64,000 nt of DNA. Source: Eubacterium sp. Lineage in GTDB: Bacteria; Bacillota; Clostridia; Oscillospirales; Acutalibacteraceae. The DNA is taken from positions 62,001 to 126,000 of the forward strand of contig JAFUEH010000036.1 of assembly GCA_017463985.1 (NCBI GenBank), written 5' to 3'. Positions 6,066 to 29,243 of the stretch are shown here, in pieces. Position 1 is the stretch's first letter, and every line of letters begins with the position of its first letter. The notes under the pieces are model-generated. The model worked only from the letters and a program-made list of their open reading frames with translations, searched no databases and was not told the DNA's origin. Both the position numbers and the translations under genes were made by a program.

Positions 6066-7598
6066 ATGCAGGGAAGAAGTGTTAAGTCTACAAGAAATAT
6101 GTTAGCCTCCTTTCTAAGCCGTACACTCGGCTTAGTGATGACCTTTGTGTCGAGAACAATTTTTATTAAGGTTTTCGGCGCAGAAATGCTTGGAATCAGT
6201 GGTTTATTTACCAATATATTATCATTTCTTTCTCTTGCAGATTTAGGCTTTTCAACTGCAATGACGTATAGTTACTATAAACCGATCGCCGAGCGTGATG
6301 AAGCAAAAATTGCAGCGTTAAATCATTTTTATAAAAAGGTATATTTAACAATTGCCGGTGCTATAACTGCTATTGGCCTTGTGCTGGTTCCGTTCTTAGA
6401 TTATTTTGTTAATCTTGAACAGAATGTTGATCATCTGTACCTGTTTTATATTCTCACGCTTTCCAAAACCGTTATTTCATATTTGTTTGTTTATAAAACT
6501 ACGGTTCTTCATGCACATCAGGAAAGCTATATAGTAACTCGCTATAACCTGATTATGGAAGTCCTTTCAGTAGCTGTTCAAATTATTTTTATGCTGCTGA
6601 CAAAGAATTATATTGTTTATTTGGTAGTTGCCATTCTTTTTACTTTTATAAACAATTTATACATATCTCATATCGCTGATAAGCGGTATCCATTTATAAA
6701 AAACAACCGATCGCTATTGTCAAAGGATGATAAAAAAGGGATTTTTAATAATCTAGGCTCCGTATTTTTGTATAAGGTTTCATCTGTATTGATTAATAGT
6801 ACCGATAATCTGATTATCTCTAAAATGGTCGGTACTATCTATGTTGGCTACTATGCAAATTATTTAACAATTATTAATACAGCATCTTCCTATATTAGTA
6901 TAACGTTTTCTTCTTTAACGGCAAGTATAGGGAATCTTATGGTGAAAGAGGATGAGAATAAACAAATACATGTTTTTAAGGAAATACAGGTATTAAGTGC
7001 ATGGTTTGCTATTGTTATAGTTACCTGCGTATATCTCTTAATTAACGATTTTATTACAATTTGGTTAGGTAATAATTTTTTGTTAGATAATCTTACTGTA
7101 ATAGCCATTGGCGTTAATTTCTTATTGCTGTGCGTTTTAAATCCTATCTGGATATTCAGAGAAGCTGCCGGCATCTATCGAAAAACAAAATATATTATGC
7201 TGATATGCGCTATATTGAATATAGGCTTGTCAATAGTCCTAGGTAAGTTAATCGGTCTATCGGGAATCCTTTTTGCATCAGCGATTGCGAAACTCTTAAC
7301 TTATGTTTGGTATGAGCCGAATATTTTGTTTAAATCGTATTTTAAAACCTCGCCTAAAAGCTTTTTTACTTCCATATTAATGATTTCTTCTGTTACATTT
7401 GTTCTTTGTATTGCAGGGTATTTTCTTCTTTCGAATATTCATTGGCAAGGTATTCCCGGCTTTATAATAAAGGGCGTTATTTGTTTTGCAATTACTAATA
7501 TAATATTTTTAGCTATCTATGGAAGAAATGAATATTTTAAAACTTTAGTGAAAAGAATACGCGACTTGATTCAAGGTTTCCTCAAGAAAAAAGCATAA
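6066..7598 (+). CDS. Polysaccharide export flippase, Wzx/MATE-like
   Basis: This 510-residue integral membrane protein with 12-14 hydrophobic segments is of the MOP/Wzx superfamily, which flips polyprenyl-linked repeat units across the membrane. The N-terminal NMLASFLSRTLGLVMTFVSRTIFIK-type segment and the following GAEMLGISGLFTNILSFLSL stretch are typical of the Firmicutes lipopolysaccharide-biosynthesis flippase family. A short loop with SSVLINSTDNLIIS lies near residue 245. It is the last gene of the first glycosyltransferase block and ends in a terminator hairpin. No Wzy-type polymerase is recognisable next to it. Confidence 0.87.
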   Translation: MQGRSVKSTRNMLASFLSRTLGLVMTFVSRTIFIKVFGAEMLGISGLFTNILSFLSLADLGFSTAMTYSYYKPIAERDEAKIAALNHFYKKVYLTIAGAITAIGLVLVPFLDYFVNLEQNVDHLYLFYILTLSKTVISYLFVYKTTVLHAHQESYIVTRYNLIMEVLSVAVQIIFMLLTKNYIVYLVVAILFTFINNLYISHIADKRYPFIKNNRSLLSKDDKKGIFNNLGSVFLYKVSSVLINSTDNLIISKMVGTIYVGYYANYLTIINTASSYISITFSSLTASIGNLMVKEDENKQIHVFKEIQVLSAWFAIVIVTCVYLLINDFITIWLGNNFLLDNLTVIAIGVNFLLLCVLNPIWIFREAAGIYRKTKYIMLICAILNIGLSIVLGKLIGLSGILFASAIAKLLTYVWYEPNILFKSYFKTSPKSFFTSILMISSVTFVLCIAGYFLLSNIHWQGIPGFIIKGVICFAITNIIFLAIYGRNEYFKTLVKRIRDLIQGFLKKKA

Positions 7599-7627: not shown

Positions 7628-8320
7628 TTATTTTTTGTTAAGGAATGCAACGTAATCAAATTTCTTCTCGTAGGCTCTGATGCCAAAGATGTCAAAGTCA
7701 AAATATTTTCGCTGAAAACGACTGTTGCCGTTGGGCTCAATATAATGTGCATACGGTTTTTTGCAATCAGGATTACGCGTGAGCAATACCTTATTATTAC
7801 AAGGGAATGCCTCCAGTAATTTTAAGTCCTCTTCTTTAGCATAGCCGTCGACGTTATACCCGTTTTCGCAGTCGTACATAATAACATAAATATTGTCCTT
7901 ATTAATACGCTCTTTTCGTTCGTTCCATTTTTGTACACCTTCCTCAAAGGTTTTGTAATGGACGAATTCCACGAAAATATCCGGTAAATTTTCCGAGGCC
8001 GTTGCTAATCTGTCACCCTTTAAAATGCCACACGGCTGACCGTTTTGATTGAAACCCGCTTCTTCGAATTCACTGTTTAAGTAAAAATCCAAATTGGCAA
8101 GAAAGCAACAAAACTGATGCGTATCGTCAATTGAAAGATTAACGGTCGGAGAATTAAATCGCTGTCCTAGCCGGTGACAAATGGTGCCGCCAATACAGTT
8201 AGTACATAAAATGGTAAAGTTTTCGTTTGTTAATTTTTTGCGAAGCTGATTGTTAAAATGACGTTCATAGAACTTATACACGGGAGAATGAACCCAAACA
8301 TTTTTTAATTTTGATAACAT
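7628..8320 (-). CDS. DUF1919 protein (exopolysaccharide-biosynthesis-associated), copy 2
   Basis: This 230-residue protein belongs to DUF1919, a family of unknown function often found in capsule and exopolysaccharide loci. It is recognised by the core NFTILCTNCIGGTICHRLG, the following FNSPTVNLSI, the HYKTFEEGVQKWNERK stretch near 125-140, and LLTRNPDC in the C-terminal third. It has no signal peptide or membrane segment. It is a diverged tandem duplicate of the gene at 8331-9014, on the strand opposite the flanking glycan genes. GGAG lies at good spacing before the ATG at 8318-8320. The W-N-E-R-K and C-N-N-K segments are kept in both copies, so they are good candidates for functional residues. 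Confidence 0.82.
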   Translation of the reverse strand: MLSKLKNVWVHSPVYKFYERHFNNQLRKKLTNENFTILCTNCIGGTICHRLGQRFNSPTVNLSIDDTHQFCCFLANLDFYLNSEFEEAGFNQNGQPCGILKGDRLATASENLPDIFVEFVHYKTFEEGVQKWNERKERINKDNIYVIMYDCENGYNVDGYAKEEDLKLLEAFPCNNKVLLTRNPDCKKPYAHYIEPNGNSRFQRKYFDFDIFGIRAYEKKFDYVAFLNKK

Positions 8321-8330
8321 TTTTAACTCC

Positions 8331-9014
8331 TTACTTTTGATTTAAAAAATCCACAAAATCAAATTTGCCTTCATATCCCTGCATACCGAAGATATTACTG
8401 TTGAGGTATACCAGCGGATACGGTTCATTATAATGTGGTTCGATATAGAACGAATGAGCTCTGGTACAGCTGGGGTTTCTTGTCAATAAGATCTTGTTGT
8501 TGCAGGGGAAGGCTTCAAATTTAGCGAAATCTTCGTCGCTGATATAGCCGGCGTCCTTCGGATCTTCGGCGTGCATATTATCAATATCATAAGCAATAAC
8601 GTACATATTGTCCTTGACAATTCGCGTTTTTCGCTCATTCCATTTTTGGCGTCCGGCCTCAAAGGTTTTATAATGAATAAAGTCGAGAATTATGTCGGGA
8701 CAAGCTTCGTTCCCGCAAATTTTTCCTCTTGGAACACCGTCCTCTCGCGGTTCCGTAATGACCGGATCCTGCGAAAGGTAATAGTCGAGGTTCTCTAAAA
8801 AGCTGCAGAAATCGCCGGTCGTCATGGAAAGGTTAACCGTAGGGGAGTTGAAGCGTTGCCCCAAGCGGTTACAGATTACCCCGCCAATGCAGTTTGGGCA
8901 CAGAATGGTAAAATCGGAATTCGTAAGCCTTTTTTGAAAGCTTTTATCGATATGCTTTTTAATGCCCTTGAAAACAAACGAGTTTTTCCAAAATTTTTTT
9001 AATTTAGAAATCAT
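8331..9014 (-). CDS. DUF1919 protein, copy 1
   Basis: This is the upstream member of a tandem DUF1919 pair, 227 residues from the ATG at 9012-9014. The frame extends to 9062 but AAGGTG sits at proper distance before the inner ATG. Shared with copy 2 are DFTILCPNCIGG, CNRLGQRFNSPTVNLSM, the HYKTFEAGRQKWNERK segment and LLTRNPSC. It differs in carrying a longer middle with FICGNEAC-like cysteine sequence and a DAGYISDEDF insert. The function of the family is not established; glycan modification or phosphotransfer is only a guess from the genomic company it keeps. Confidence 0.82.
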   Translation of the reverse strand: MISKLKKFWKNSFVFKGIKKHIDKSFQKRLTNSDFTILCPNCIGGVICNRLGQRFNSPTVNLSMTTGDFCSFLENLDYYLSQDPVITEPREDGVPRGKICGNEACPDIILDFIHYKTFEAGRQKWNERKTRIVKDNMYVIAYDIDNMHAEDPKDAGYISDEDFAKFEAFPCNNKILLTRNPSCTRAHSFYIEPHYNEPYPLVYLNSNIFGMQGYEGKFDFVDFLNQK

Positions 9015-9030
9015 TTTTATCACCTTATTC

Positions 9031-9059
9031 AATTTATCATAAAACTGTATCAGAGTCAA
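9031..9059 (-). promoter_or_regulatory. Probable sigma-A promoter for the DUF1919 pair
   Basis: Read on the minus strand, TTGACT (9059-9054) is followed after 17 bases by TAAATT (9036-9031). The -35 is near consensus and the -10 is weak. It is placed just upstream of the ATG at 9014. Confidence 0.45.
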
Positions 9060-9082
9060 CAAGCAGTATGCGGAGATGAAAT

Positions 9083-10150
9083 ATGAAAAAAATTCTTTTT
9101 ATCGGGAATACCCCGTATCAGATTCTTTTAGCCACCTGGATTAAGTATCATTATTTTTCGCAGGATTCAGCTGATATTTTAATCCATGACAGACTGAAAG
9201 GTTATGAAGCCGTGAAGGCAAATATAGAAACGCTCTCCGTGTTCGATCAGGTTATTGTTCAGCCAGATCATTATAAGAAAACAAAATTAGGTAGAGTAGG
9301 ACGAATTGTTAGAGAGTATCAGTTTTCTAAAAAAAGGTTTCATCGTTCTTTTTACGATGAGCTATTCTTTGCTAATTTCGGATTTTCATCACAGCGTATT
9401 TTCGATGTGTTAAAGCGAAATAATTTCAACTTGCGTACGCATTATTTTGAAGACGGCATTCTTTCATACAGTCAAAAAATAAGCTATTTTTATCATCGCT
9501 TATCTAAACCTTCTTTTAAAACGCTTACGCATGATAATGCGCTTATTAAGCATTACGTTTGTGGCGAACTGAATGATTTTTGGTTGTTTACGCCATCGCT
9601 TTTGGAATGGAATCCGGATGTTGAAGCAATAAAAGCTATCGATAAAATTGATCAAGCTGACGCTGAATTTAAAAAAATCATCAATTGCATTTTTGATTTC
9701 GATCAATTAGAGGATATCTATTCCCAAAAGTATATCTTTTTTGAGGAATCTTATTTTCAGGACACCGGCTATATGGAGGATGTTCAACTAATTGATGCGC
9801 TGGCAGATGAGGTCGGCAAAGAGAATTTAATGATTAAGATTCATCCGCGCAATCAAGTCAACCGCTTTCGTGAACGAGGTTATCAGACCAATACCAATAC
9901 GGTCATCCCGTGGGAGGTGCTGGCGCTGAATCTTGATTTAGATAATAAGGTATTGCTTACGATTGCATCCTCGAGTATCGTTAATCCTGCTGCCATGTTT
10001 GGCTGTAAAGCGAAAGCCTATTCTCTTATGAACTGTTTGGCGAATAAGCCTTATCAGCTCAATAGCGATTACAGTAAAACGGTGAGCAATTTTTTTGAAT
10101 ATTTCGATTGTATTAAATTGTGTGAGGATCTTAAGGAGGTAACTAAATGA
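9083..10150 (+). CDS. Sialyltransferase-like glycosyltransferase (GT52/polysialyltransferase type)
   Basis: This 355-residue GT-B-like enzyme probably transfers a CMP-activated ulosonic acid. It opens with IGNTPYQILLA, the start seen in GT52-type sialyltransferases. It has all three hallmark motifs of bacterial sialyltransferases: an acidic EDG at residues 123-125, HP at 254-255 (KIHPR), and a serine run SSS at 296-298 (ASSSIVNPAAMFG). The next two genes encode a CMP-sugar synthetase and an aldolase, which fits this donor class. The family call is mine from motifs; overall similarity could not be measured. The acceptor and exact donor are unknown. It overlaps the next gene by four bases. Confidence 0.7.
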   Translation: MKKILFIGNTPYQILLATWIKYHYFSQDSADILIHDRLKGYEAVKANIETLSVFDQVIVQPDHYKKTKLGRVGRIVREYQFSKKRFHRSFYDELFFANFGFSSQRIFDVLKRNNFNLRTHYFEDGILSYSQKISYFYHRLSKPSFKTLTHDNALIKHYVCGELNDFWLFTPSLLEWNPDVEAIKAIDKIDQADAEFKKIINCIFDFDQLEDIYSQKYIFFEESYFQDTGYMEDVQLIDALADEVGKENLMIKIHPRNQVNRFRERGYQTNTNTVIPWEVLALNLDLDNKVLLTIASSSIVNPAAMFGCKAKAYSLMNCLANKPYQLNSDYSKTVSNFFEYFDCIKLCEDLKEVTK

Positions 10151-10806
10151 AGGTTGTTGCAGTTGTTCCGATGAAATTAACAAATCAGAGGCTTCCTCAA
10201 AAGAACACGCTTCCGTTTACAAACGGCAAGCCTTTATGCTATTATATTTTAAAAACACTTTTAAGCATAGAAACAATTGATGATGTATATGTTTATTGCA
10301 GCAACGAAGACATTATTAATTACATCCCCGACGGTGTTAAGTTTTTAAAGAGAAGCACTGTGTTAGATACCAACACTGCCTCTATGACGGATGTATTAAA
10401 AGCCTTTGCCAAAGATGTAACGGCAGATGTCTATGTTATGACGCATACTACTGCTCCTTTTATTTCGGCTGAAAGCATCCAAGAGGGTGTTAATGCGGTG
10501 ATCAGTGGCGAGTATGATTCTTCGTTTGCTGCTAAAAAGCTTCAGGACTTTTTATGGCAGGACGGTAAGCCGTTTAATTATGACTTGGATAATATTCCGC
10601 GCACTCAGGATCTGAAACCCTTGTATGAGGAAACCAGCGGTTTCTATATTTATACAAATGAGGTTATTTCAAATCTCGGAAGGCGCATTGGCATCAACCC
10701 TTATGTTGTCGAAGTCGATGAGATACAAGCTATTGATATTGATGAAAAAGAAGATTTTTTGATTGCAGATGCTATCTATAATTTTTTAATGCGTGGTGAG
10801 GATTAA
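10147..10806 (+). CDS. Acylneuraminate cytidylyltransferase family protein (CMP-sugar synthetase)
   Basis: This 219-residue protein activates a 2-keto-3-deoxy sugar acid with CTP to a CMP-sugar, as NeuA and KdsB do. The N-terminal nucleotide-binding signature VVPMKLTNQRLPQKNTLPF matches the family pattern of a basic residue, R-x-P and K-N. A later TTAPFISAESI and YEETSGFYIYTN also fit the family. It starts within the last codons of the sialyltransferase-like gene and ends directly at the aldolase gene. No neuB-type synthase is near; the sugar acid would have to come from the adjacent aldolase or from outside the window. Confidence 0.82.
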   Translation: MKVVAVVPMKLTNQRLPQKNTLPFTNGKPLCYYILKTLLSIETIDDVYVYCSNEDIINYIPDGVKFLKRSTVLDTNTASMTDVLKAFAKDVTADVYVMTHTTAPFISAESIQEGVNAVISGEYDSSFAAKKLQDFLWQDGKPFNYDLDNIPRTQDLKPLYEETSGFYIYTNEVISNLGRRIGINPYVVEVDEIQAIDIDEKEDFLIADAIYNFLMRGED

Positions 10807-11573
10807 TGAAGGAATCTCTATATAAATTCAGAACGTTGATTAGCGACGGAAAATGCGTTTACGGTCCGTTCATGAAAACTTCTGATCCCATGTTTGTTGA
10901 AGCTGTCGGATTAGCAGGATTTGATTTTGTAATTTTAGACACTGAACACGGTCCGGCTGAAATTGAAACACAACAGAACAATATTAGGGCTGCTGAGGCA
11001 AGAGGAACCGTACCGATTATTCGACTAAAAGATAAAGCCGAAAACACCATCGGCAGAGCCTTGGATATTGGCGCTTACGGTATTCAGGTGCCGCAGATTT
11101 CAAATGCCATGGAAGCACGTGATGTTGTAAAATATGCAAAGTTTTATCCACACGGCATGCGTGGCGTATGTCGGTTTGTTCGAGCAGCTGATTATTCAGC
11201 CATGGACCGGTATCAGTTTTTTGATGCATCAAATGATCTGATTATTATTCTTCAGTTAGAAGGTATTGATGCTATCAAAAATATTGACGAAATCCTTGAG
11301 GTTGAGGGCGTGGATATACTTTTTATTGGCCCCTATGATTTGTCGCAATCCCTTGGATTGCCGGGTCAGGTCAATAACCCTGTTGTTGTTGATGCAATGA
11401 TGAAAATAGTTGATAAAGCGAAAGCAAAAAACAAAGTGATTGGCTGTTTTGTTGATACTCCCGAGGACCTAAAAATGTGGAGAGAGCTTGGACTGCAATA
11501 TCTGAGCTATTCTGTTGATGTCGGAATTTTTATGGATGCCTGTAAAAAAATTCAAGAGAGCTGTATTAGATAG
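10806..11573 (+). CDS. HpcH/HpaI-family class II pyruvate aldolase
   Basis: This 255-residue TIM-barrel metal-dependent aldolase joins or splits pyruvate and an aldehyde to give a 4-hydroxy-2-oxo acid. Active-site residues are in place: H48 in DTEHGP (general base), R73 in PIIRLKDK (pyruvate carboxylate), and the metal ligands E152 in LQLEGID and D178 in GPYDLSQSLG. Characterised relatives act on 2-keto-3-deoxy-L-rhamnonate or 4-hydroxy-2-oxoheptanedioate in catabolism. Here it is translationally coupled (one-base overlap) to a CMP-sugar synthetase, so a biosynthetic role making a 3-deoxy-2-ulosonic acid is likely. That role is an inference from position. Confidence 0.87.
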   Translation: MKESLYKFRTLISDGKCVYGPFMKTSDPMFVEAVGLAGFDFVILDTEHGPAEIETQQNNIRAAEARGTVPIIRLKDKAENTIGRALDIGAYGIQVPQISNAMEARDVVKYAKFYPHGMRGVCRFVRAADYSAMDRYQFFDASNDLIIILQLEGIDAIKNIDEILEVEGVDILFIGPYDLSQSLGLPGQVNNPVVVDAMMKIVDKAKAKNKVIGCFVDTPEDLKMWRELGLQYLSYSVDVGIFMDACKKIQESCIR

Positions 11574-12513: not shown

Positions 12514-14169
12514 ATGACTATTAGCAAAAGAAGCTACATGCGTAAAACTATTATTCTTTTACCTGTGATGGTTACAATTATATGTTTGCTGATTGGATTA
12601 GTGAATGGAAGTCGTGTCGATGATGTATTCATGATGAAAATCGCAGAAAGTTTCCGGACGAACAGTCACAGCGAACAGTTGATGTTTATTAGCGAGATAT
12701 ATGGTTTTTTATTGAAATTTTTGTATAATCTTATTCCGGCTGTTTCTTGGTATTGGGTATTACAAGTTGCCATTTTAACATTGGCTTTCGTTTGTATGTA
12801 TATGATTGTAACTCGCTATGAGTATGATTATATTATTTTTTGCATATTAGTTTTGCTTCAATGTTACTTCTTAGCTTTCCTCAATTTTACTTCAACCGCT
12901 TTCTTGTGTGCCGGTGTAGGCGTGATATGGTATTTGTCTTGTGTGGACAAAATCTGTAAGAAAAACATAAAGCATATTGTTATCTCTTTCCTGCTATTAT
13001 TACTTGGATTTTCCATGAGATACGGAAGTGTATATTTTTGCATTATTCTCATGTTTGTTCCGATATTTGTTTTGAACATTAAACAGAAGAAGGCAACATT
13101 ATCTGCTATGCTACTTTTGGTTCTTTTATGTACGTGCTCCAATTATTTATGTATCGGTATTCATAGAATGTATAATGAGCATATTCCGTCAAGTATGTAT
13201 TATAACGAATTTCAAAGCGTGAGAAGTAATGCAAGCGATGGCGGATTGTTTGAATATGACCAAACGTTAGATACTGTTGGGATATCCCAAAACGATTTTG
13301 ATATTTTTCAAAAGTATGTTTATGCCGATATTAATGTTTATAATTACGGTTCTGTAAAAACTATTGGAGAAGCGAGAAGCCTTGAAAATCGTTACACTTT
13401 AAACATAAGTGACTTCTTCAAAGATTTTGCATCTCAAACTAAACGTTTTTATGTGTTTTTACTTCTATATTTTGTTTTATTTTCCTACATTGTCGCACGT
13501 AAGAGAGAATCTTATCTATCCGTGATAGCATTTTCGGCTTTTGTTTTTGGTGCTGTTGGTTTTCTGTTCTTCAGAAGACGAGCGGTGTTAGATATTGTTC
13601 TGGCAATTATCACAGTTGGAATGTTTTATTTGCTGACAATAATTTCTCGAAAGAAGTTTTTTACACCTAAAAAAAATATTACTAAAATTATTATTATTGG
13701 TCTATGTATATGCTCAATATGTTTTCAGGGCGTATTCCTTTTTAAAGCCAACAACGACTTTACTACCGAGCATGATATTACTACTGTGGAAGAGTATGTT
13801 TCTTCAAATCCAGACAAAATATATGTATGTGATCCCTTTTGCAATAATCAGTATGAACAGCAAAAGCAAAATCATAATTTGCTTAAAGCCGATTATCAAA
13901 CTTCTCATTTATATTCGATTTTAGGAGATTGGTATATATATTCATATTATTGGTATGATCTTTATCAAAATTTAGGAGTTAGTGAATATGCACAAAATGG
14001 TATGCTTTTACTACTTGATGACAGGGTGAGTCTTGCTACTAAGTCAATTAAGCCTACCATGGTGGTAACGTACTTTTTAGAGAATTATAATATTAAAGTT
14101 GAGTATACCATTGAAAAAACTTTTGATGATTGTAACATTGTGATATATGATTTTGATATTGTTAATTGA
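12514..14169 (+). CDS. Polytopic membrane protein, possible GT-C glycosyltransferase (paralogue 1 of 3)
   Basis: This 551-residue protein has about eleven membrane segments and two large outer loops. It shares an ordered set of motifs with the proteins at 14296 and 24807. These are an acidic DD pair just after the first membrane segment followed by a TN.HSE motif, a loop with FQ.xRS.A.DGG, FLFFRRR near the middle, and a C-terminal D.YIYSYYWYDL...LLLDD region. An acidic pair in the first outer loop is the usual catalytic feature of GT-C enzymes that use polyprenyl-phosphate sugars. I cannot name a family with certainty. The gene is clearly more AT-rich than its two paralogues, which suggests separate origin. 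A GAGGAG site precedes the ATG. Confidence 0.7.
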   Translation: MTISKRSYMRKTIILLPVMVTIICLLIGLVNGSRVDDVFMMKIAESFRTNSHSEQLMFISEIYGFLLKFLYNLIPAVSWYWVLQVAILTLAFVCMYMIVTRYEYDYIIFCILVLLQCYFLAFLNFTSTAFLCAGVGVIWYLSCVDKICKKNIKHIVISFLLLLLGFSMRYGSVYFCIILMFVPIFVLNIKQKKATLSAMLLLVLLCTCSNYLCIGIHRMYNEHIPSSMYYNEFQSVRSNASDGGLFEYDQTLDTVGISQNDFDIFQKYVYADINVYNYGSVKTIGEARSLENRYTLNISDFFKDFASQTKRFYVFLLLYFVLFSYIVARKRESYLSVIAFSAFVFGAVGFLFFRRRAVLDIVLAIITVGMFYLLTIISRKKFFTPKKNITKIIIIGLCICSICFQGVFLFKANNDFTTEHDITTVEEYVSSNPDKIYVCDPFCNNQYEQQKQNHNLLKADYQTSHLYSILGDWYIYSYYWYDLYQNLGVSEYAQNGMLLLLDDRVSLATKSIKPTMVVTYFLENYNIKVEYTIEKTFDDCNIVIYDFDIVN

Positions 14170-14262: not shown

Positions 14263-14295
14263 ATTAAAAAATATTTTGGTAACATCAAATTGATT

Positions 14296-15978
14296 ATGAA
14301 GTTAAAATCCGCAAAAAAAAAGCTTGTTCTTTTGATTCCGCTGTTGTTGACCGGCTTTATGCTGGCGACACATACCGTACGCTTTATCGTGAATGACGAT
14401 ATTGCAATGATGCGCATTGCCGAGAGCTATGCCACGAATGCACATAGTGAACACTTGATTTTTATGAACATCTTTTATGGCTATCTGCTGAAAGGGCTGT
14501 ATCATATTCTTCCGAATGTCAACTGGTTCGTTTGGCTGGAGCTGGCAGTATTGAACATCGCCTTTGTGTCTTTGTTTAATATCGCTGAGCATTTTAAAGC
14601 CAAAGTGCTCCCTTATTTTGTACTCACGGCGTGCGAGCTGTTTTTCCTCAGCAATCTGACCTTTACGGCTATATCATTTATCTGTTCCGTTACCGCAATG
14701 CTGTGGTTAGTTACTTATGTGGACAAGCTCAGTAAAGCGAACATCAAGCATTTAGCTTACGGTTTATGTTTATTCCTTTTGGCGTATGCAATGCGTAACG
14801 GCAGCGCTTTCTACTTCACCGTACTGCTGAGCGCGCCTATTTTGTTTTTTGGCTTTGTACGCAAAAGAAATTCCTTTGCTGCCGTCGCTGTGTTTTTGGT
14901 TCTCTGCACGGTAGCCAACTATTCCTTGCTATTCGTTCAGCAATCATATAAATCGCAGATTCCGGAAGATATGTATTATACGCAGTTTCAGGAATATCGC
15001 TCGGACGCCAACGACGGCGGTCTCTTTGACTATGAACGGCACAGCGAGGAGCTGGCGGCGAAGGGGATTTCTGCGAATGATTATGATCTGCTGATTCACT
15101 GGATGTACGGTGATAAGGAATATTTTGATGCCGACTTTATGAAGGCGATTGCTGAAAGCCGTGACTTTGATGAAAAATATAATACGGATGTGTTTGATAT
15201 TTCCGATAACCTGGATGAAAAGGCAACGCTGTTGCCGCTGTTGGTGACCGCGTTTGTCATCGCTTTTGTACTATTCCTGTTGTCGCCGAAAGCCGGCGTG
15301 GAAGGCGCCTTGTCATTCCTTGCAACGCTTGCTGCGGTAATATTCCTGTTTTTCCGGCGCAGAGGGTTAGAGCGTGTAGCTAATCTGGTGGTAATATGCA
15401 ATATCGTGTTACTGCTGTTTGTTTATCTGTTGTATCAAGGGGAAATACAGCAGCGGTTACGTCCGTTCACCGGCCAAAGACACGCTGTTTCAACGCTTGT
15501 GTTAGTCTGTGTTTTGACTATCGGATTAATGTTCAACAGTTCCTATACAGATGCTGTACATACGGAAGCAAAATATGAATATTTGACCCGTATTGCCGCG
15601 TATGTAAAAAATGACACCGAGCACGTTTATTTTGCTGATGTCGACACCTTTAATAACTATAAGACGACTTATATTAACCATAATATTTTGAAGCCGTATA
15701 CGAATAACGATATTCCGGCTTATTCTTTCTTGGGCGGCTGGACGATTTACTCGTATTATTATTACGACACGATGGACAATCTGGAGCTATCAGAATATGA
15801 GGATTCTGTCATGTCGGCAGTATTGGATGATCATGTCTATTTTATCGCTACCGGCTTCCATACCGAACGGTTTGAAGATTTCTTTAGAGAACATTACGGG
15901 ATAGAGGTGTCGTACAGAAAGCTGAAACAATTTGACGGTACGAATACCGCCGTTTATGATTTCTATGTTGTGGAATGA
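14296..15978 (+). CDS. Polytopic membrane protein, possible GT-C glycosyltransferase (paralogue 2 of 3)
   Basis: This 560-residue relative of the proteins at 12514 and 24807 carries the same landmarks in the same order: NDDIAMM after the first membrane segment, TNAHSEHLIF, NIKH between early membrane helices, FQEYRSDANDGGLFDY in a large outer loop, FLFFRRR, and GGWTIYSYYYYDT near the C-terminus. It is closer in sequence and in base composition to the 24807 copy than to its direct neighbour. The ATG at 14296 is preferred over a TTG at 14290, though no strong ribosome binding site is visible. It probably acts outside the membrane on a lipid-linked sugar. The family is not recognised with certainty. 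Confidence 0.7.
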   Translation: MKLKSAKKKLVLLIPLLLTGFMLATHTVRFIVNDDIAMMRIAESYATNAHSEHLIFMNIFYGYLLKGLYHILPNVNWFVWLELAVLNIAFVSLFNIAEHFKAKVLPYFVLTACELFFLSNLTFTAISFICSVTAMLWLVTYVDKLSKANIKHLAYGLCLFLLAYAMRNGSAFYFTVLLSAPILFFGFVRKRNSFAAVAVFLVLCTVANYSLLFVQQSYKSQIPEDMYYTQFQEYRSDANDGGLFDYERHSEELAAKGISANDYDLLIHWMYGDKEYFDADFMKAIAESRDFDEKYNTDVFDISDNLDEKATLLPLLVTAFVIAFVLFLLSPKAGVEGALSFLATLAAVIFLFFRRRGLERVANLVVICNIVLLLFVYLLYQGEIQQRLRPFTGQRHAVSTLVLVCVLTIGLMFNSSYTDAVHTEAKYEYLTRIAAYVKNDTEHVYFADVDTFNNYKTTYINHNILKPYTNNDIPAYSFLGGWTIYSYYYYDTMDNLELSEYEDSVMSAVLDDHVYFIATGFHTERFEDFFREHYGIEVSYRKLKQFDGTNTAVYDFYVVE

Positions 15979-19035: not shown

Positions 19036-19976
19036 TTTCGATCGCCATTCCGTGTTATAATTCGTCCAAAACCCTGCGAACGGTCGTCACAGAAATCAAA
19101 GACGTATTCAGGCAAAAAATCGGTTACGATTATCAGATTATTCTAGTGAATGATAATTCACCGGATAAAACGTATGATGTGATCCGCTCGCTCTGTGCAG
19201 AGGACAGACGGATCATTGGCGTTGATCTTTCAAAAAATTACGGTCAGATTTCGGCTCAGATGGCAGCTATTCGCTTTATTAAGGGCGAGGTTGCTGTTTT
19301 CATGGACGATGACGGACAGCACGCGCCGGCCGATCTTTTTCAGCTGGTGGACAAGGTGCTTGACGGCTCTGATCTGGTGTTCGCTTCGTTCGGTAAAAAG
19401 CAGCACAGCTTCTTAAAAAAAGCGACCAGTGCTATGAACGCGAAGCTGCTCGAGATGACGAACCGTAAGCCAAAAGGAATTACTATTTCAAGCTTCTTTG
19501 CCTTGAGCAGAACAGCGGTGGACTCACTGAAGGATTACAAAAGTCCGTATCCGTCGATTTGCGGTTATTTGCTGCAGATTACCAGTAAAATATCGAATGT
19601 TGAGCTGCAGCACCGCGACAGATTGGCCGGTCACAGTAATTATTCGCTGAGTAAGCTGGTTAAGCTGTTTCTGCAGGGCTTTACTAACTTTTCGATCGTG
19701 CCGCTCAGGGTGTCGTCCTTTATCGGCATATTCAGTGCGTTTATTGGCTTTATTATCGGTATTTACTATATCATCCGGCGTTTGTTTATCCCCGGTACGG
19801 TCAGTGGCTTTACGGCTAATATTTCCGCCACGCTGTTTATTGGCGGACTGATTATGCTGATGCTCGGTATGCTGGGTGAATATATCGGTCGTATTTATAT
19901 TTTGCTCAGCGATATGCCGCAATATAATATCAGAGAGACAATTAATGAGGACAAAAATGGAACAAAAGAAAAGTAA
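19029..19976 (+). CDS. Polyprenyl-phosphate glycosyltransferase, ArnC/DPM1-like
   Basis: This 315-residue GT2 enzyme transfers a sugar from a nucleotide to polyprenyl phosphate. The catalytic domain shows ISIAIPCYNSSKTL, ILVNDNSPDKTY near 38-49, LSKNYGQISAQMAA, the metal motif MDDDGQH near 92-98 and HRDRLAGHSNYSLSKL near 195. Two C-terminal membrane helices (about 225-248 and 258-283) follow, as in ArnC. It overlaps the acetyltransferase gene by seven bases. It is directly followed by two small SMR-type membrane proteins, the same gene logic as ArnC with ArnE/ArnF. The sugar is probably the dTDP-linked amino sugar made downstream. Confidence 0.88.
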   Translation: MLISIAIPCYNSSKTLRTVVTEIKDVFRQKIGYDYQIILVNDNSPDKTYDVIRSLCAEDRRIIGVDLSKNYGQISAQMAAIRFIKGEVAVFMDDDGQHAPADLFQLVDKVLDGSDLVFASFGKKQHSFLKKATSAMNAKLLEMTNRKPKGITISSFFALSRTAVDSLKDYKSPYPSICGYLLQITSKISNVELQHRDRLAGHSNYSLSKLVKLFLQGFTNFSIVPLRVSSFIGIFSAFIGFIIGIYYIIRRLFIPGTVSGFTANISATLFIGGLIMLMLGMLGEYIGRIYILLSDMPQYNIRETINEDKNGTKEK

Positions 19977-20313
19977 CAGTATTATCTATTATATTATTCT
20001 TCATGCGCTGCTGTTTGTTTACTCCTTTTCCGGTGTATGCTCCAAGATGGCGTCGGGTGAGAAGTTTTTATCGTTTAAATTTATTCTGTTTTACGGCGGT
20101 ATTATTGCCATCCTGGGCGTTTATGCCATTGTATGGCAGCAGATCTTAAAGCACATTCCGTTAACCACAGCCTTCTGTAATAAAGCTGTCGGCATTATTT
20201 GGGGGATCGTATGGGGTGTGGTTATTTTTAGGGAAACCGTTACCTGGAATATGTTAGTGGGTGCAGTCATCGTCATTATCGGCGTGATCATAGTGGTGAA
20301 GGCTGATGAATAG
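19957..20313 (+). CDS. SMR/EamA-like small membrane protein, ArnE/ArnF-like flippase subunit
   Basis: This 118-residue protein has four membrane helices and resembles half of an EamA domain or an SMR subunit. GAGG at 19947-19950 sets the start at ATG 19957, so it overlaps the ArnC-like gene by 20 bases. The C-terminal helix with WNMLVGAVIVIIGVIIVVKADE is typical of the family. The preceding KHIPLTTAFCNKAVGIIWGIVW segment matches the glycan-lipid flippase branch rather than drug exporters. With the next gene it would form a two-subunit carrier moving a polyprenyl-phosphate sugar to the outer face. That role is inferred from the ArnC-ArnE-ArnF arrangement. Confidence 0.8.
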   Translation: MEQKKSNSIIYYIILHALLFVYSFSGVCSKMASGEKFLSFKFILFYGGIIAILGVYAIVWQQILKHIPLTTAFCNKAVGIIWGIVWGVVIFRETVTWNMLVGAVIVIIGVIIVVKADE

Positions 20314-26505: not shown

Positions 26506-27681
26506 ATGAACGCTCAAAAGGAATATTTTATTGCATTGCTTTCCTGCTTTTTGAGCGGAACCAGACCGCAGGGCAGGGAAGCCGATTTTGAAGAACTGTA
26601 CCGTCTGGCGGATATTCATGACGTAGGCGCTATCATTGCGACGGAGTTAAAAGAGGTTGCGCCGGCGTTTCAGCCGCAGGGCAAGTTGGCATCGCACTTT
26701 ACCCAAGCGATTGGGTTGACGCTGCGCGAATTTCAACACCGCGAAACAGCGCAGCGAATTGTGAAAGCGCTGCTGGACGGTGAACATATTGATCATCTCT
26801 TCGTGAAGGGTGCTGTGATTAAATCGGACTATCCCGTACCGGAGCTGCGTACAAGCGGCGATATTGACGTGATCGTTCGTAAAACCGATTTTGAAAAAGT
26901 CGTCTCACTTGCTGAGCATACTGCGGTACCGCTGACCGTGAAGGAGCAGACAAGCGAAGTCGTGACATGGAAGCTGAACGGTATTGATGTTGAAATCCAC
27001 AGCACAGCTGATGTCAGCTCTGATTATTTTAATGATATCATGGCTTTAGCTATCCGCCAAGACGGCTATACCTACCGCTTGAGCGATACCGACCATCTCC
27101 TGTACATTATCTGTCATCTGGCGAAGCATCTGGCTTACCGCGGCGCCGGCATCAGAATGCTGATGGATGTCGATGTCCTTGTGCGAAAGCTGCAGCCCTT
27201 CGATCAGTCAGGCTTCTTGATCCTGTGTGAGAACGCCGGTTGCAAAAAGACGGCGGAAGCGCTGTTATCGCTGGCGGCATTTTGGTTCGGCACGCCTGTT
27301 ACAGCGACGGTGGACTACCCGTCGAATCCTTTGCTGCTGCAAAGCTTTGAACGCGTTATGCTCGATGGCGGCAGCTTTGGCTATGAGCAAAACGCCATTC
27401 CGGTCCGCTATCTTGACCACGACGGCAGTACCGAAGAAAGCCGCTTAAAAATACTGTTAAAAATGGCCTTTCCGAGTAGGGAATACCTGAAGCTGTGCTA
27501 TCCGTATTATCAAAAATACGCTTTTCTCTATCCGGTGGCGCGTTTGAATCGGCTGGCAGACGGCCTATTTAAAAAGCGTAAGGCTGCTGCTGATGTATTA
27601 CAGCAAGTCAAGACGGATGGCGGCAATGCCTCTGTTCAGCTGGCACTGATCCGTGAGCTGGAGATCAATTATAAAAAATAG
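26506..27681 (+). CDS. Putative nucleotidyltransferase (NTP_transf_5 family)
   Basis: This 391-residue cytosolic protein is related to the uncharacterised nucleotidyltransferase family NTP_transf_5. The key motif is RTSGDIDVIVRKTDFEKV near 121-138, in which the D-x-D of SGDIDVIV would bind metal, with a third acidic residue in DVEIHST near 163. The LFVKGAVIKSDYPVPELR stretch before it is also typical. The remainder is alpha-helical. Members occur in glycan and peptide-modification loci but no reaction is established. Its gene is adjacent to the fused cytidylyltransferase-kinase (11-base gap to the ATG), so the two may act on the same small molecule. Confidence 0.78.
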   Translation: MNAQKEYFIALLSCFLSGTRPQGREADFEELYRLADIHDVGAIIATELKEVAPAFQPQGKLASHFTQAIGLTLREFQHRETAQRIVKALLDGEHIDHLFVKGAVIKSDYPVPELRTSGDIDVIVRKTDFEKVVSLAEHTAVPLTVKEQTSEVVTWKLNGIDVEIHSTADVSSDYFNDIMALAIRQDGYTYRLSDTDHLLYIICHLAKHLAYRGAGIRMLMDVDVLVRKLQPFDQSGFLILCENAGCKKTAEALLSLAAFWFGTPVTATVDYPSNPLLLQSFERVMLDGGSFGYEQNAIPVRYLDHDGSTEESRLKILLKMAFPSREYLKLCYPYYQKYAFLYPVARLNRLADGLFKKRKAAADVLQQVKTDGGNASVQLALIRELEINYKK

Positions 27682-27692
27682 TGGTGAACTGC

Positions 27693-29243
27693 ATGAATAT
27701 TGTTGCTATTCTTGCCAACGGTGTTGGCGAGCGGTTCGGAAGCAATGTTCCGAAGCAATTTCATAAAATTAACGGTAAGATGGTTATCGAATACGTTATT
27801 GATTCTATCTTGACCTCTACAAAGCTTGACAAGCTGGTGATCGCTACCAATATCGAAGCGAACAGCGTTTATCTTGAGGATATATGCAAAGCGCATCATA
27901 TCGCGCTTGTGGAGGGCGGCGCTACGCGTAACCAAACGCTGAAAAATGTGATCGATTATATCGCTGAGAATGAGCAATGCGACAGCCTGATCGTGTGCGA
28001 TGCTGTCAGACCGATGATCACCGGCGAGCTGATGGATACGTACTTTACGCTGCTGGAGGATAATGACGCTGTTGTTACAGCGCAGAAAATTACGGATTCC
28101 CTCGGATGCTATGATACGCATCAGGTACGCCGCGAGCGTTATTACCTCATGCAATCGCCGGAGGCTTTCCGTTTTCCTCTGCTTGCTGACTCGTTTGACG
28201 CAGCTTCACCGTTAACAGAGGTAACGCAGCAGCTGCCGCAGGACAGTAAGATTTATCTATATTTCGATTTTAATAATAACTTTAAGCTGACCTATCCTGC
28301 TGATTTAAAATATCTTGAAGCACTGATTAAGGCAAGAGATAATACGGTCGACTTTTCTGATATTCTCAGCCAGGTCGAACGGCTGAACCGCTTTTTAGCG
28401 GTTTATCATCCGGTCGAGGCACGTGAGTGGCGTTTAGAGCTGGAAAGATCCATTCCTGTGTTGTTAAAAAACTGGCAGATAACAGATTACAGACTGATCA
28501 AAACCTCACATTTCGGTATTATTTTCATTGCGAAATCTGTTCAGTACGGCCGCTGTGTGCTGAAAATCATTCCGCCTTTTATTGGCCGCTACCTGCCGGA
28601 AAGCACGGCTTACCGAAAAATTAATTCGCAAATCATGTGTGAGCTTTATGACTATGACGATCGTTGCTCTGCAATTTTACTCGAACGCTGCGAGGAAGCT
28701 GATGTTGCTTTTCACGGAAACGATGAAAGATTAGTGACCTTCTTTGAACAGGTGATGAACGGATATGCCTGTGAAACCGGCACCGCTTTTCATGATTATG
28801 AAGTGACGCTGCGTCATAAGCTGACAGAAACGGATTTTAAATATAAAAAGTCGCAGATCATGGATTATGTTCAGGCAGCGGTGACGCGTTTTGAAAATAC
28901 CTTTTCAAACAGTAACCGCGTGCTGATCCACGGCGACCTGCACCGTTATAATATTATGAGCCGTGGCGGTAGCCTTTGCGCCATTGACCCGATTGGCTAT
29001 CTTGCGCCAAAGGAATTTGATATTGCGCGCTATATCGGTACGGAGCTGACAGATTCCGATGGCGATAAGCAAGCGCTTTACGCGTCGCTTTTATCGTGCT
29101 TTTCTTCTTTATGCGATGTGAATAAGCTGCGCGCCGCTGTTTTTATCGATATTGTTTTTCGCCTGCATAACAGCCTTTTTGAAAACGACAATTATGATTT
29201 GACGGATAAATGGCTGACTGTTTTGGAGGAAGCTGTCAACTAA
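27693..29243 (+). CDS. Fused IspD/TarI-like cytidylyltransferase and APH(6)-like kinase
   Basis: This protein of about 516 residues has two domains. Residues 1-230 resemble IspD/TarI cytidylyltransferases: ILANGVGERFGSNVPKQF near 5-22, EGGATRNQTLKNVI near 72 and CDAVRPMIT near 100. From about 240 onward is a kinase fold of the aminoglycoside/hydroxyurea phosphotransferase (APH(6)) type, with the catalytic loop LIHGDLHRYNIMS (H413, D415) and the metal segment AIDPIGYLAPKEFDIARYI. A kinase and a CTP transferase in one chain would turn a free alcohol into a CDP-alcohol, as LicA plus LicC do for choline. The ATG at 27693 is preferred over GTGs at 27681/27684. The substrate is unknown. Confidence 0.85.
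   Translation: MNIVAILANGVGERFGSNVPKQFHKINGKMVIEYVIDSILTSTKLDKLVIATNIEANSVYLEDICKAHHIALVEGGATRNQTLKNVIDYIAENEQCDSLIVCDAVRPMITGELMDTYFTLLEDNDAVVTAQKITDSLGCYDTHQVRRERYYLMQSPEAFRFPLLADSFDAASPLTEVTQQLPQDSKIYLYFDFNNNFKLTYPADLKYLEALIKARDNTVDFSDILSQVERLNRFLAVYHPVEAREWRLELERSIPVLLKNWQITDYRLIKTSHFGIIFIAKSVQYGRCVLKIIPPFIGRYLPESTAYRKINSQIMCELYDYDDRCSAILLERCEEADVAFHGNDERLVTFFEQVMNGYACETGTAFHDYEVTLRHKLTETDFKYKKSQIMDYVQAAVTRFENTFSNSNRVLIHGDLHRYNIMSRGGSLCAIDPIGYLAPKEFDIARYIGTELTDSDGDKQALYASLLSCFSSLCDVNKLRAAVFIDIVFRLHNSLFENDNYDLTDKWLTVLEEAVN

Follow-up and report, generated by a model that had tools for sequence, protein, structure and literature searches.

A 64,000-nucleotide stretch of a Eubacterium sp. 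genome (assembly GCA_017463985.1, contig JAFUEH010000036.1, positions 62,001 to 126,000; here called the window) carries three consecutive plus-strand genes that encode a sialyltransferase-like glycosyltransferase, a cytidine monophosphate (CMP)-sugar-acid synthetase, and a class II pyruvate aldolase of the HpcH/HpaI family. We think it probable that these genes make up a self-contained module for a CMP-ulosonate within a cell-surface polysaccharide locus, and that the aldolase of this module makes a 2-keto-3-deoxy sugar acid. In the known routes, CMP-sialic acids and CMP-Kdo (3-deoxy-D-manno-octulosonate) are made with phosphoenolpyruvate (PEP)-dependent synthases, NeuB and KdsA, and genome annotation uses either synthase as a marker of ulosonate glycans. 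In the proposed module the activation and transfer steps would be of known types, but the carbon-carbon bond-forming step would not be the known one.

The transferase gene (positions 9083 to 10150; 355 amino acids) encodes a member of the alpha-2,8-polysialyltransferase family and a putative CMP-ulosonate transferase (PF07388, E = 3.5e−10, 40.4 bits, curated cut-off 23.3). The EDG, HP, and SSS motifs that an initial annotation of this DNA had reported are present in the protein. Across 11 aligned homologues, E123, G125, H254, P255, and S296 are invariant, and the EDG stretch is EEG in two of the 11. Sequence searches found no solved-structure relative of this protein. The synthetase gene (10147 to 10806; 219 amino acids) encodes a NeuA/PseF-like cytidylyltransferase (CTP_transf_3, PF02348, E = 1.5e−18, 67.9 bits, above the curated cut-off) whose top match in the PDB is PpNeuA (9t4z, 7.5e−16), which supports its earlier prediction as a CMP-sugar synthetase. 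The aldolase gene (10806 to 11573; 255 amino acids) matches PF03328 (E = 1.5e−31, 109.8 bits, cut-off 25), and its product is the proposed ulosonate-forming replacement of NeuB or KdsA. The coordinates of the open reading frames (ORFs) confirm the coupling described initially, with overlaps of four bases between transferase and synthetase and of one base between synthetase and aldolase. Neither the synthetase nor the aldolase has a curated name, because neither attains any NCBIfam equivalog cut-off: the best score of the synthetase is 62.7 bits against 205.7 for PseF (TIGR03584), and the aldolase scores 167.6, 166.1, 166.3, and 122.5 bits against GarL/HpaI/RhmA cut-offs of 393, 368.8, 406.75, and 441. 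As judged from sequence, the cytidylyltransferase and the CMP-sialate-type transferase of the canonical pathway are present in the set.

The same pairing of synthetase and aldolase turns up at many loci, so the gene set is not a chance arrangement. Searching 84,980 species genomes with the alignment of the synthetase gave 270 relatives, and among the best 80, which were analyzed, a pyruvate-aldolase-type gene lies within 1 kb of the synthetase gene in 73. An HpcH/HpaI gene is found within 150 bases in 11 of the 80 loci, once as a fusion. A gene of a different kind, encoding a DRE-TIM protein (PF00682), lies within 150 bases in 56 loci and within 1 kb in six more (62 in total). Given these proportions, the window represents the rarer form of a wider module. 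The triad that the initial annotation had expected elsewhere thus recurs in part: the synthetase-HpcH/HpaI pair is found in the 11 loci and in one further locus (L206), but the full triad with a PF07388-type transferase occurs in only two of the 11 (L050 and L073). Similarly, the placement of a pyruvate aldolase where the synthase should be is supported by the pairing and by the missing NeuB and KdsA, but HpcH/HpaI is a minority form and the commoner DRE-TIM form had been missed. According to record titles and tree labels, the 80 loci belong mostly to Bacillota, with others in Bacteroidota, Spirochaetota, one Thermoplasmatota archaeon, and Azomonas. The DRE-TIM loci include those of the isolates Sporolactobacillus spathodeae, Ruminococcus flavefaciens, Acetatifactor muris, Anaerostipes butyraticus, and Lactococcus hodotermopsidis.

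A scan of 300 genomes of the family, which overlaps the larger scan at three loci, detected a synthetase homologue in 22 genomes, the window's included (E ≤ 1e−15), and at ≥48% identity in 16. We took 20 neighborhoods, namely the 15 other close ones and five of the six distant ones (G137 was left out). Among the close loci, 13 have a PF00682 protein adjoining the synthetase and one, from the same genus (G231), has an HpcH/HpaI protein; in the remaining one (L038) the place is masked by an antisense ORF. The five distant loci (26 to 34% identity) include one with NeuB and one with a 3-deoxy-D-arabino-heptulosonate 7-phosphate (DAHP)-type synthase beside the synthetase, and the aldolase and synthase profiles used gave no match in the other three. 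At L046 (28% identity) a stand-alone DAHP-type synthase gene and a KdsC-like gene neighbor the synthetase (L046:2899-5807). We rejected a KdsA-like assignment for this synthase, which passes the DAHP-synthase cut-off and not that of KdsA; maybe the locus specifies a CMP-heptulosonate route.

The association with an aldolase is not special to the synthetase clade of the window, because an intended control showed it as well: among 14 loci chosen as the best PF02348 scorers from 147 genomes of the order, seven have a DRE-TIM gene, two have a synthase of the NeuB family (PseI and NeuB, each above the cut-off), and five have neither. All five synthetases scanned from the seven DRE-TIM control loci exceed a KdsB-subfamily cut-off, and three exceed the kdsB equivalog cut-off, with the other two just under it. 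With these KdsB-type control synthetases included, the CMP-ulosonate synthetases that have a DRE-TIM aldolase as neighbor are of two kinds. At one such locus (L145) three genes in a row encode a synthetase of the KdsB type (194.8 bits, cut-off 155.2), a DRE-TIM protein, and a phosphatase of the KdsC type (165.7 bits, cut-off 106.95); the genome (G370) has no KdsA over the cut-off. More generally, at L145 to L151 DRE-TIM aldolase-like genes adjoin genes for KdsB-type synthetases in genomes that have no KdsA over the cut-off. At these loci an aldolase may lead to Kdo or to an acid resembling it.

Neither NeuB (PF03102) nor KdsA (TIGR01362) has any match in the whole window genome (2.58 Mb, 41 contigs, 97.26% complete). 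Its sole PF00793 match passes DAHP-synthase cut-offs, is located on another contig, and looks housekeeping, and we therefore rejected a KdsA or NeuB elsewhere in this genome. The initial annotation would have been contradicted by a neuB or kdsA homologue outside the window, and these searches of a 97%-complete genome revealed none. PF03328 matches two proteins in the genome, the aldolase of the triad and a divergent one, and a search of this genome for a DRE-TIM relative, made without a positive control from it, found none. We also searched 23 module-bearing genomes, 16 with a NeuA-type and seven with a KdsB-type synthetase, and detected KdsA over the cut-off in none. PF03102 exceeds its cut-off in 16 of the 23, all but one of these matches coinciding with places that match the KdsA profile below its cut-off. 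We do not regard these matches as NeuB, the two coinciding places that were scanned being DAHP synthases; the exception is one genome (G298) that has a real NeuB (231.6 bits) on a different contig from the module. KpsF/KdsD (TIGR00393) is over its cut-off in none of the 23 genomes, the window's included, and a NeuC-type epimerase was not searched for; arabinose 5-phosphate supplied by KpsF/KdsD is thus unsupported as the acceptor.

The proposed mechanism has three steps. The HpcH/HpaI aldolase would join pyruvate to an aldose, free or phosphorylated, and so form a 2-keto-3-deoxy sugar acid, i.e., a 3-deoxy-2-ulosonic acid. The cytidylyltransferase would then use cytidine triphosphate (CTP) to turn this acid into a CMP-sugar, with the release of pyrophosphate pulling the reversible aldol step, and the PF07388-type transferase would attach the sugar to the growing polysaccharide. 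Because KdsC matches in the window genome are all below the cut-off, we suggest that a phosphatase, if needed, would be a housekeeping enzyme. The interpretation in the initial annotation is supported overall, while the synthetic direction, pyruvate as the donor, the order of the chemical steps, and the product are what we infer from the gene content. In vitro, HpcH/HpaI class II enzymes form such aldol products from glyceraldehyde, erythrose, and, less selectively, ribose (PMC7610986).

The active site of the aldolase is complete, as had been claimed: the metal-binding and catalytic residues D45, H48, R73, Q150, E152, and D178 do not vary among 12 HpcH/HpaI aldolases paired with a synthetase and are shared with Escherichia coli GarL and YfaU. 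Arg70 and His45 are named as important in class II HpaI (PMC8560999), and by our own matching of the residue numbers the window's R73 and H48 appear to align with them. In a comparison with the PDB, aldolases of 2-keto-3-deoxy sugar acids are the nearest solved relatives. When the class was searched with a profile built from the paired proteins, 64 of 391 genomes gave matches at E ≤ 1e−30. Neighborhoods of 39 such places besides the window, covered over about 4 kb each, contain an adjacent same-clade synthetase in three cases (L073 and L078, already known from the synthetase side, and L206, which is new) and none in 36. Paired aldolases score at least 470 bits and unpaired ones at most 423, a gap that is partly circular because the profile was built from the paired ones, and the phylogenetic tree is therefore the better test. 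In the tree of 51 aldolases, the 13 paired proteins and that of L095 form one clade (Shimodaira-Hasegawa-like approximate likelihood ratio support of 98) within a branch of unpaired ones. In the tree of 93 synthetases, the HpcH/HpaI-paired rows are nested among the DRE-TIM-paired rows. Several independent recruitments of HpcH/HpaI were considered and rejected: the quick tree requires four changes, yet the likelihood improves when the 12 rows are constrained to group (approximately unbiased test, P = 0.834). As this test does not reject one origin and the aldolases cluster in a single clade, we prefer a single recruitment into the module as the likelier history.

All six DRE-TIM proteins that we scanned exceed the PF00682 cut-off, and the three compared with NCBIfam are nearest to 4-hydroxy-2-oxovalerate aldolase, below its cut-off. 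For one of them the nearest solved structure is 3dxi, a "putative aldolase" (9.3e−34), followed by 4-hydroxy-2-oxovalerate aldolases. The LRDG motif and the histidines H194 and H196 of the HSHNN motif are invariant in 36 aligned rows; we take these to be the metal and catalytic residues of DmpG. Most of the proteins are about 530 amino acids long and have an extra C-terminal part, which aligns with GT42-like transferases at an hhalign probability of 85.5% (0.3% and 1.7% for unrelated controls) and may be a GT42-like domain. At L043 the DRE-TIM protein has 338 amino acids and its gene is followed by one for a KdsC-type phosphatase over the cut-off.

Besides L145, two loci bear on the place that the aldolase occupies. 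At L078 the synthetase and the HpcH/HpaI aldolase share a single 508-amino-acid frame in which both Pfam domains are present. Because the DNA at the junction lacks an aldolase start codon, unlike in the related L073, a plain frameshift error is disfavored. At L126, from Azomonas agilis, a 510-amino-acid protein with a NeuB domain (PF03102, 155 bits) is encoded directly before a same-clade synthetase. A GT42-like N terminus of this protein was considered and rejected (hhalign probability of 24.8%; 0.95% against the DRE-TIM C terminus). We count in favor of the proposed module that two unrelated families, PF00682 proteins nearest to 4-hydroxy-2-oxovalerate aldolase and PF03328 proteins, fill one place, and that a NeuB-domain protein can, as L126 suggests, occupy the same place.

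Transferases of three kinds accompany the module. In the stretches covered, GT42-like proteins are the commonest (35 of the 80 loci), followed by PF07388-like (17) and GT52-like (9) ones, and three loci have two kinds. The GT42-like profile matches sialyltransferases of the CstII type in the PDB (2x63, 3.7e−8; 1ro7, 9.9e−8). Because nine of the 11 HpcH/HpaI loci have a GT42-like transferase and two a PF07388-like one, the exact triad of the window is a rarer version even among these loci.

Several observations weigh against the proposed function. Five of the 80 loci have no aldolase in the stretch covered (L085, L112, L121, L090, and L126), although the contig of L085 ends just past the synthetase, L112 is likewise close to a contig end, and L126 has NeuB instead. 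The DRE-TIM gene of L100 is 5.4 kb from the synthetase, and L095 has both aldolase kinds at 1.6 and 2.5 kb. None of the three transferase types is found in the stretches covered at 22 of the 80 loci. The 11 HpcH/HpaI records are metagenome-type assemblies, with titles of the uncultured, bin, or CAG kind or without a cultured strain, and the L078 fusion is known from one such assembly. Among the 25 commonest families of 92 proteins flanking the 11 HpcH/HpaI loci (glycosyltransferases, flippases, acyltransferases, and Radical SAM/SPASM proteins), there is no aldose kinase, isomerase, or other aldose-supplying enzyme. No synthetase gene adjoins those of the nearest aldolases outside the module (66% identity), one of which (L210) is in the company of mannonate/galactonate dehydratase-type, 2-keto-3-deoxygluconate (KDG)-kinase-like, and 2-keto-3-deoxy-6-phosphogluconate-aldolase-like genes, i.e., in a catabolic setting. 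Given this company and the tree, the module aldolase seems to descend from enzymes that cleave 2-keto-3-deoxy sugar acids.

An alternative reading gives the aldolase the opposite role. The initial annotation had named activity only in cleavage of an unrelated catabolite as evidence against its reading, and the HpcH/HpaI relatives outside the module do look catabolic, both at L210 and at L213 and L214, which are next to ferredoxin-type oxidoreductase genes (read by eye). If the synthetase activated an acid made or imported in another way, the aldolase could serve to cleave surplus free ulosonate, and the KDG-kinase-like gene near the DRE-TIM gene in 16 of the 80 loci would fit such salvage or disposal; at a guess, this gene could alternatively point to a C6 acid or to a phosphorylated acceptor. 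We consider salvage or disposal improbable. The window genome has neither NeuB nor KdsA to produce the acid, and no sugar-acid dehydratase, kinase, or transporter or uptake gene was recognized among the scanned neighbors at positions 241 to 22627 (the ORFs at 14290-15978 and 19876-20313 were unscanned and that at 12514-14169 matches no family). Moreover, cleavage does not sit well with a synthetase clade that is adjoined by two unrelated aldolases and, in one species, by NeuB, with the fusion at L078, or with the KdsC-type phosphatases next to the DRE-TIM genes of L043 and L145.

Two further alternatives retain a biosynthetic role for the locus and change the acid. As several HpcH/HpaI enzymes take hydroxypyruvate and 2-oxobutyrate in vitro (PMC7610986), the donor could be one of these or oxaloacetate, and the ulosonic acid would then be branched or not 3-deoxy. 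We regard another donor as unlikely, because the nearest solved relatives are named for 2-keto-3-deoxy acids that release pyruvate and, for the DRE-TIM partner, the closest match is an aldolase of pyruvate type. A CMP-activated acid that is dephosphorylated 3-deoxy-D-arabino-heptulosonate, with the aldolase unconnected, is very unlikely: the window genome does have a DAHP synthase, and at L046 genes for a DAHP-type synthase and a KdsC-like protein accompany the distant synthetase, but the window genome's enzyme is the housekeeping-like one on another contig, and the linkage and fusion of the aldolase would be left unexplained. We thus retain synthesis of a 2-keto-3-deoxy acid by the aldolase as the preferred reading.

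The proposed module resembles known systems in part. It has in common with the CMP-sialate, CMP-legionaminate, and CMP-pseudaminate pathways (NeuB-NeuA and LegI/PseI-type) a cytidylyltransferase of the NeuA/PseF kind, a sialyltransferase-like enzyme, and a surface polysaccharide locus, but these pathways use a PEP-dependent synthase where the window has a class II pyruvate aldolase beside the synthetase. Relative to the CMP-Kdo pathway (KdsD-KdsA-KdsC-KdsB), related loci retain a KdsB-type synthetase, and L145 also a KdsC-type phosphatase, whereas KdsA over the cut-off is missing from 23 of 23 genomes searched, as is KdsD, and a DRE-TIM aldolase takes the position of KdsA at the related loci. 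The window aldolase belongs to the same fold family as the sugar-acid catabolism aldolases GarL, RhmA/YfaU, and HpaI and shares their metal and catalytic residues, but it falls in its own clade paired with CMP-sugar synthetases, far below the equivalog cut-offs. The protein of the common form has 4-hydroxy-2-oxovalerate aldolase (DmpG/BphI, DRE-TIM) as its nearest named family, with LRDG and HxH invariant, but differs in scoring under the cut-offs and in its additional C-terminal domain.

We found no description of an aldolase-fed CMP-ulosonate pathway in the open-access literature; subscription papers were outside this search. On balance we lean toward a third, PEP-independent route to CMP-ulosonates, in which DRE-TIM and HpcH/HpaI aldolases would replace NeuB and KdsA in the polysaccharide loci of many Firmicutes, some Bacteroidota and Spirochaetota, and an archaeon, and would feed NeuA/PseF-like and KdsB-like synthetases. 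The HpcH/HpaI product would be a 3-deoxy-2-ulosonic acid undescribed in glycans, possibly of C6 to C8. If these aldolases do the job of the synthase, many gut-type bacteria, including Gram-positive ones, carry ulosonate glycans that have been overlooked. Pulling a reversible aldol step forward with CTP would then be a new way to build surface sugar acids, and the aldolases would be new catalysts for ulosonic acid synthesis.

The surroundings of the triad are those of a polysaccharide locus, with genes for LicD, GT2 enzymes, acyltransferases, a pyruvyl transferase-like protein, and a flippase-like export protein (6066 to 7598, plus strand; PF01943, 19.6 bits, below the cut-off of 28.2; weak NCBIfam WZX_like match). 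RmlA-type and RmlB-type enzymes and a deoxythymidine diphosphate-4-amino sugar transaminase are encoded further on. The gene for an initiating sugar transferase, which exceeds its family cut-off, lies 8 kb upstream of where the window begins (L243). Directly after it, also about 8 kb upstream, lies a divergent second HpcH/HpaI-family gene (L243:4007-4822, contig C26:54006-54821; PF03328, 37.8 bits). Radical SAM/SPASM proteins account for eight of the 92 flank proteins of the HpcH/HpaI loci (L049 to L078), and none was recognized among the window genes scanned. A tandem pair of DUF1919 genes is located immediately ahead of the triad on the minus strand, opposite to the locus (7628 to 9062). The genes at 12514-14169, whose product matches no Pfam family, and at 14290-15978 encode similar neighboring membrane-type proteins of about 550 to 560 amino acids. 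At 27681-29243 and 241-1035, an IspD-type cytidylyltransferase domain is followed within one protein by a weak phosphotransferase/kinase-like region; with a LicD gene in the locus, this two-part protein is perhaps a fused phosphocholine-type activation enzyme. Finally, two or three different cytidylyltransferase genes stand in series at several loci (L078:7861-9319, L050:4142-4957, L095, and L121:7708-8451), which suggests more than one CMP-sugar per polysaccharide.

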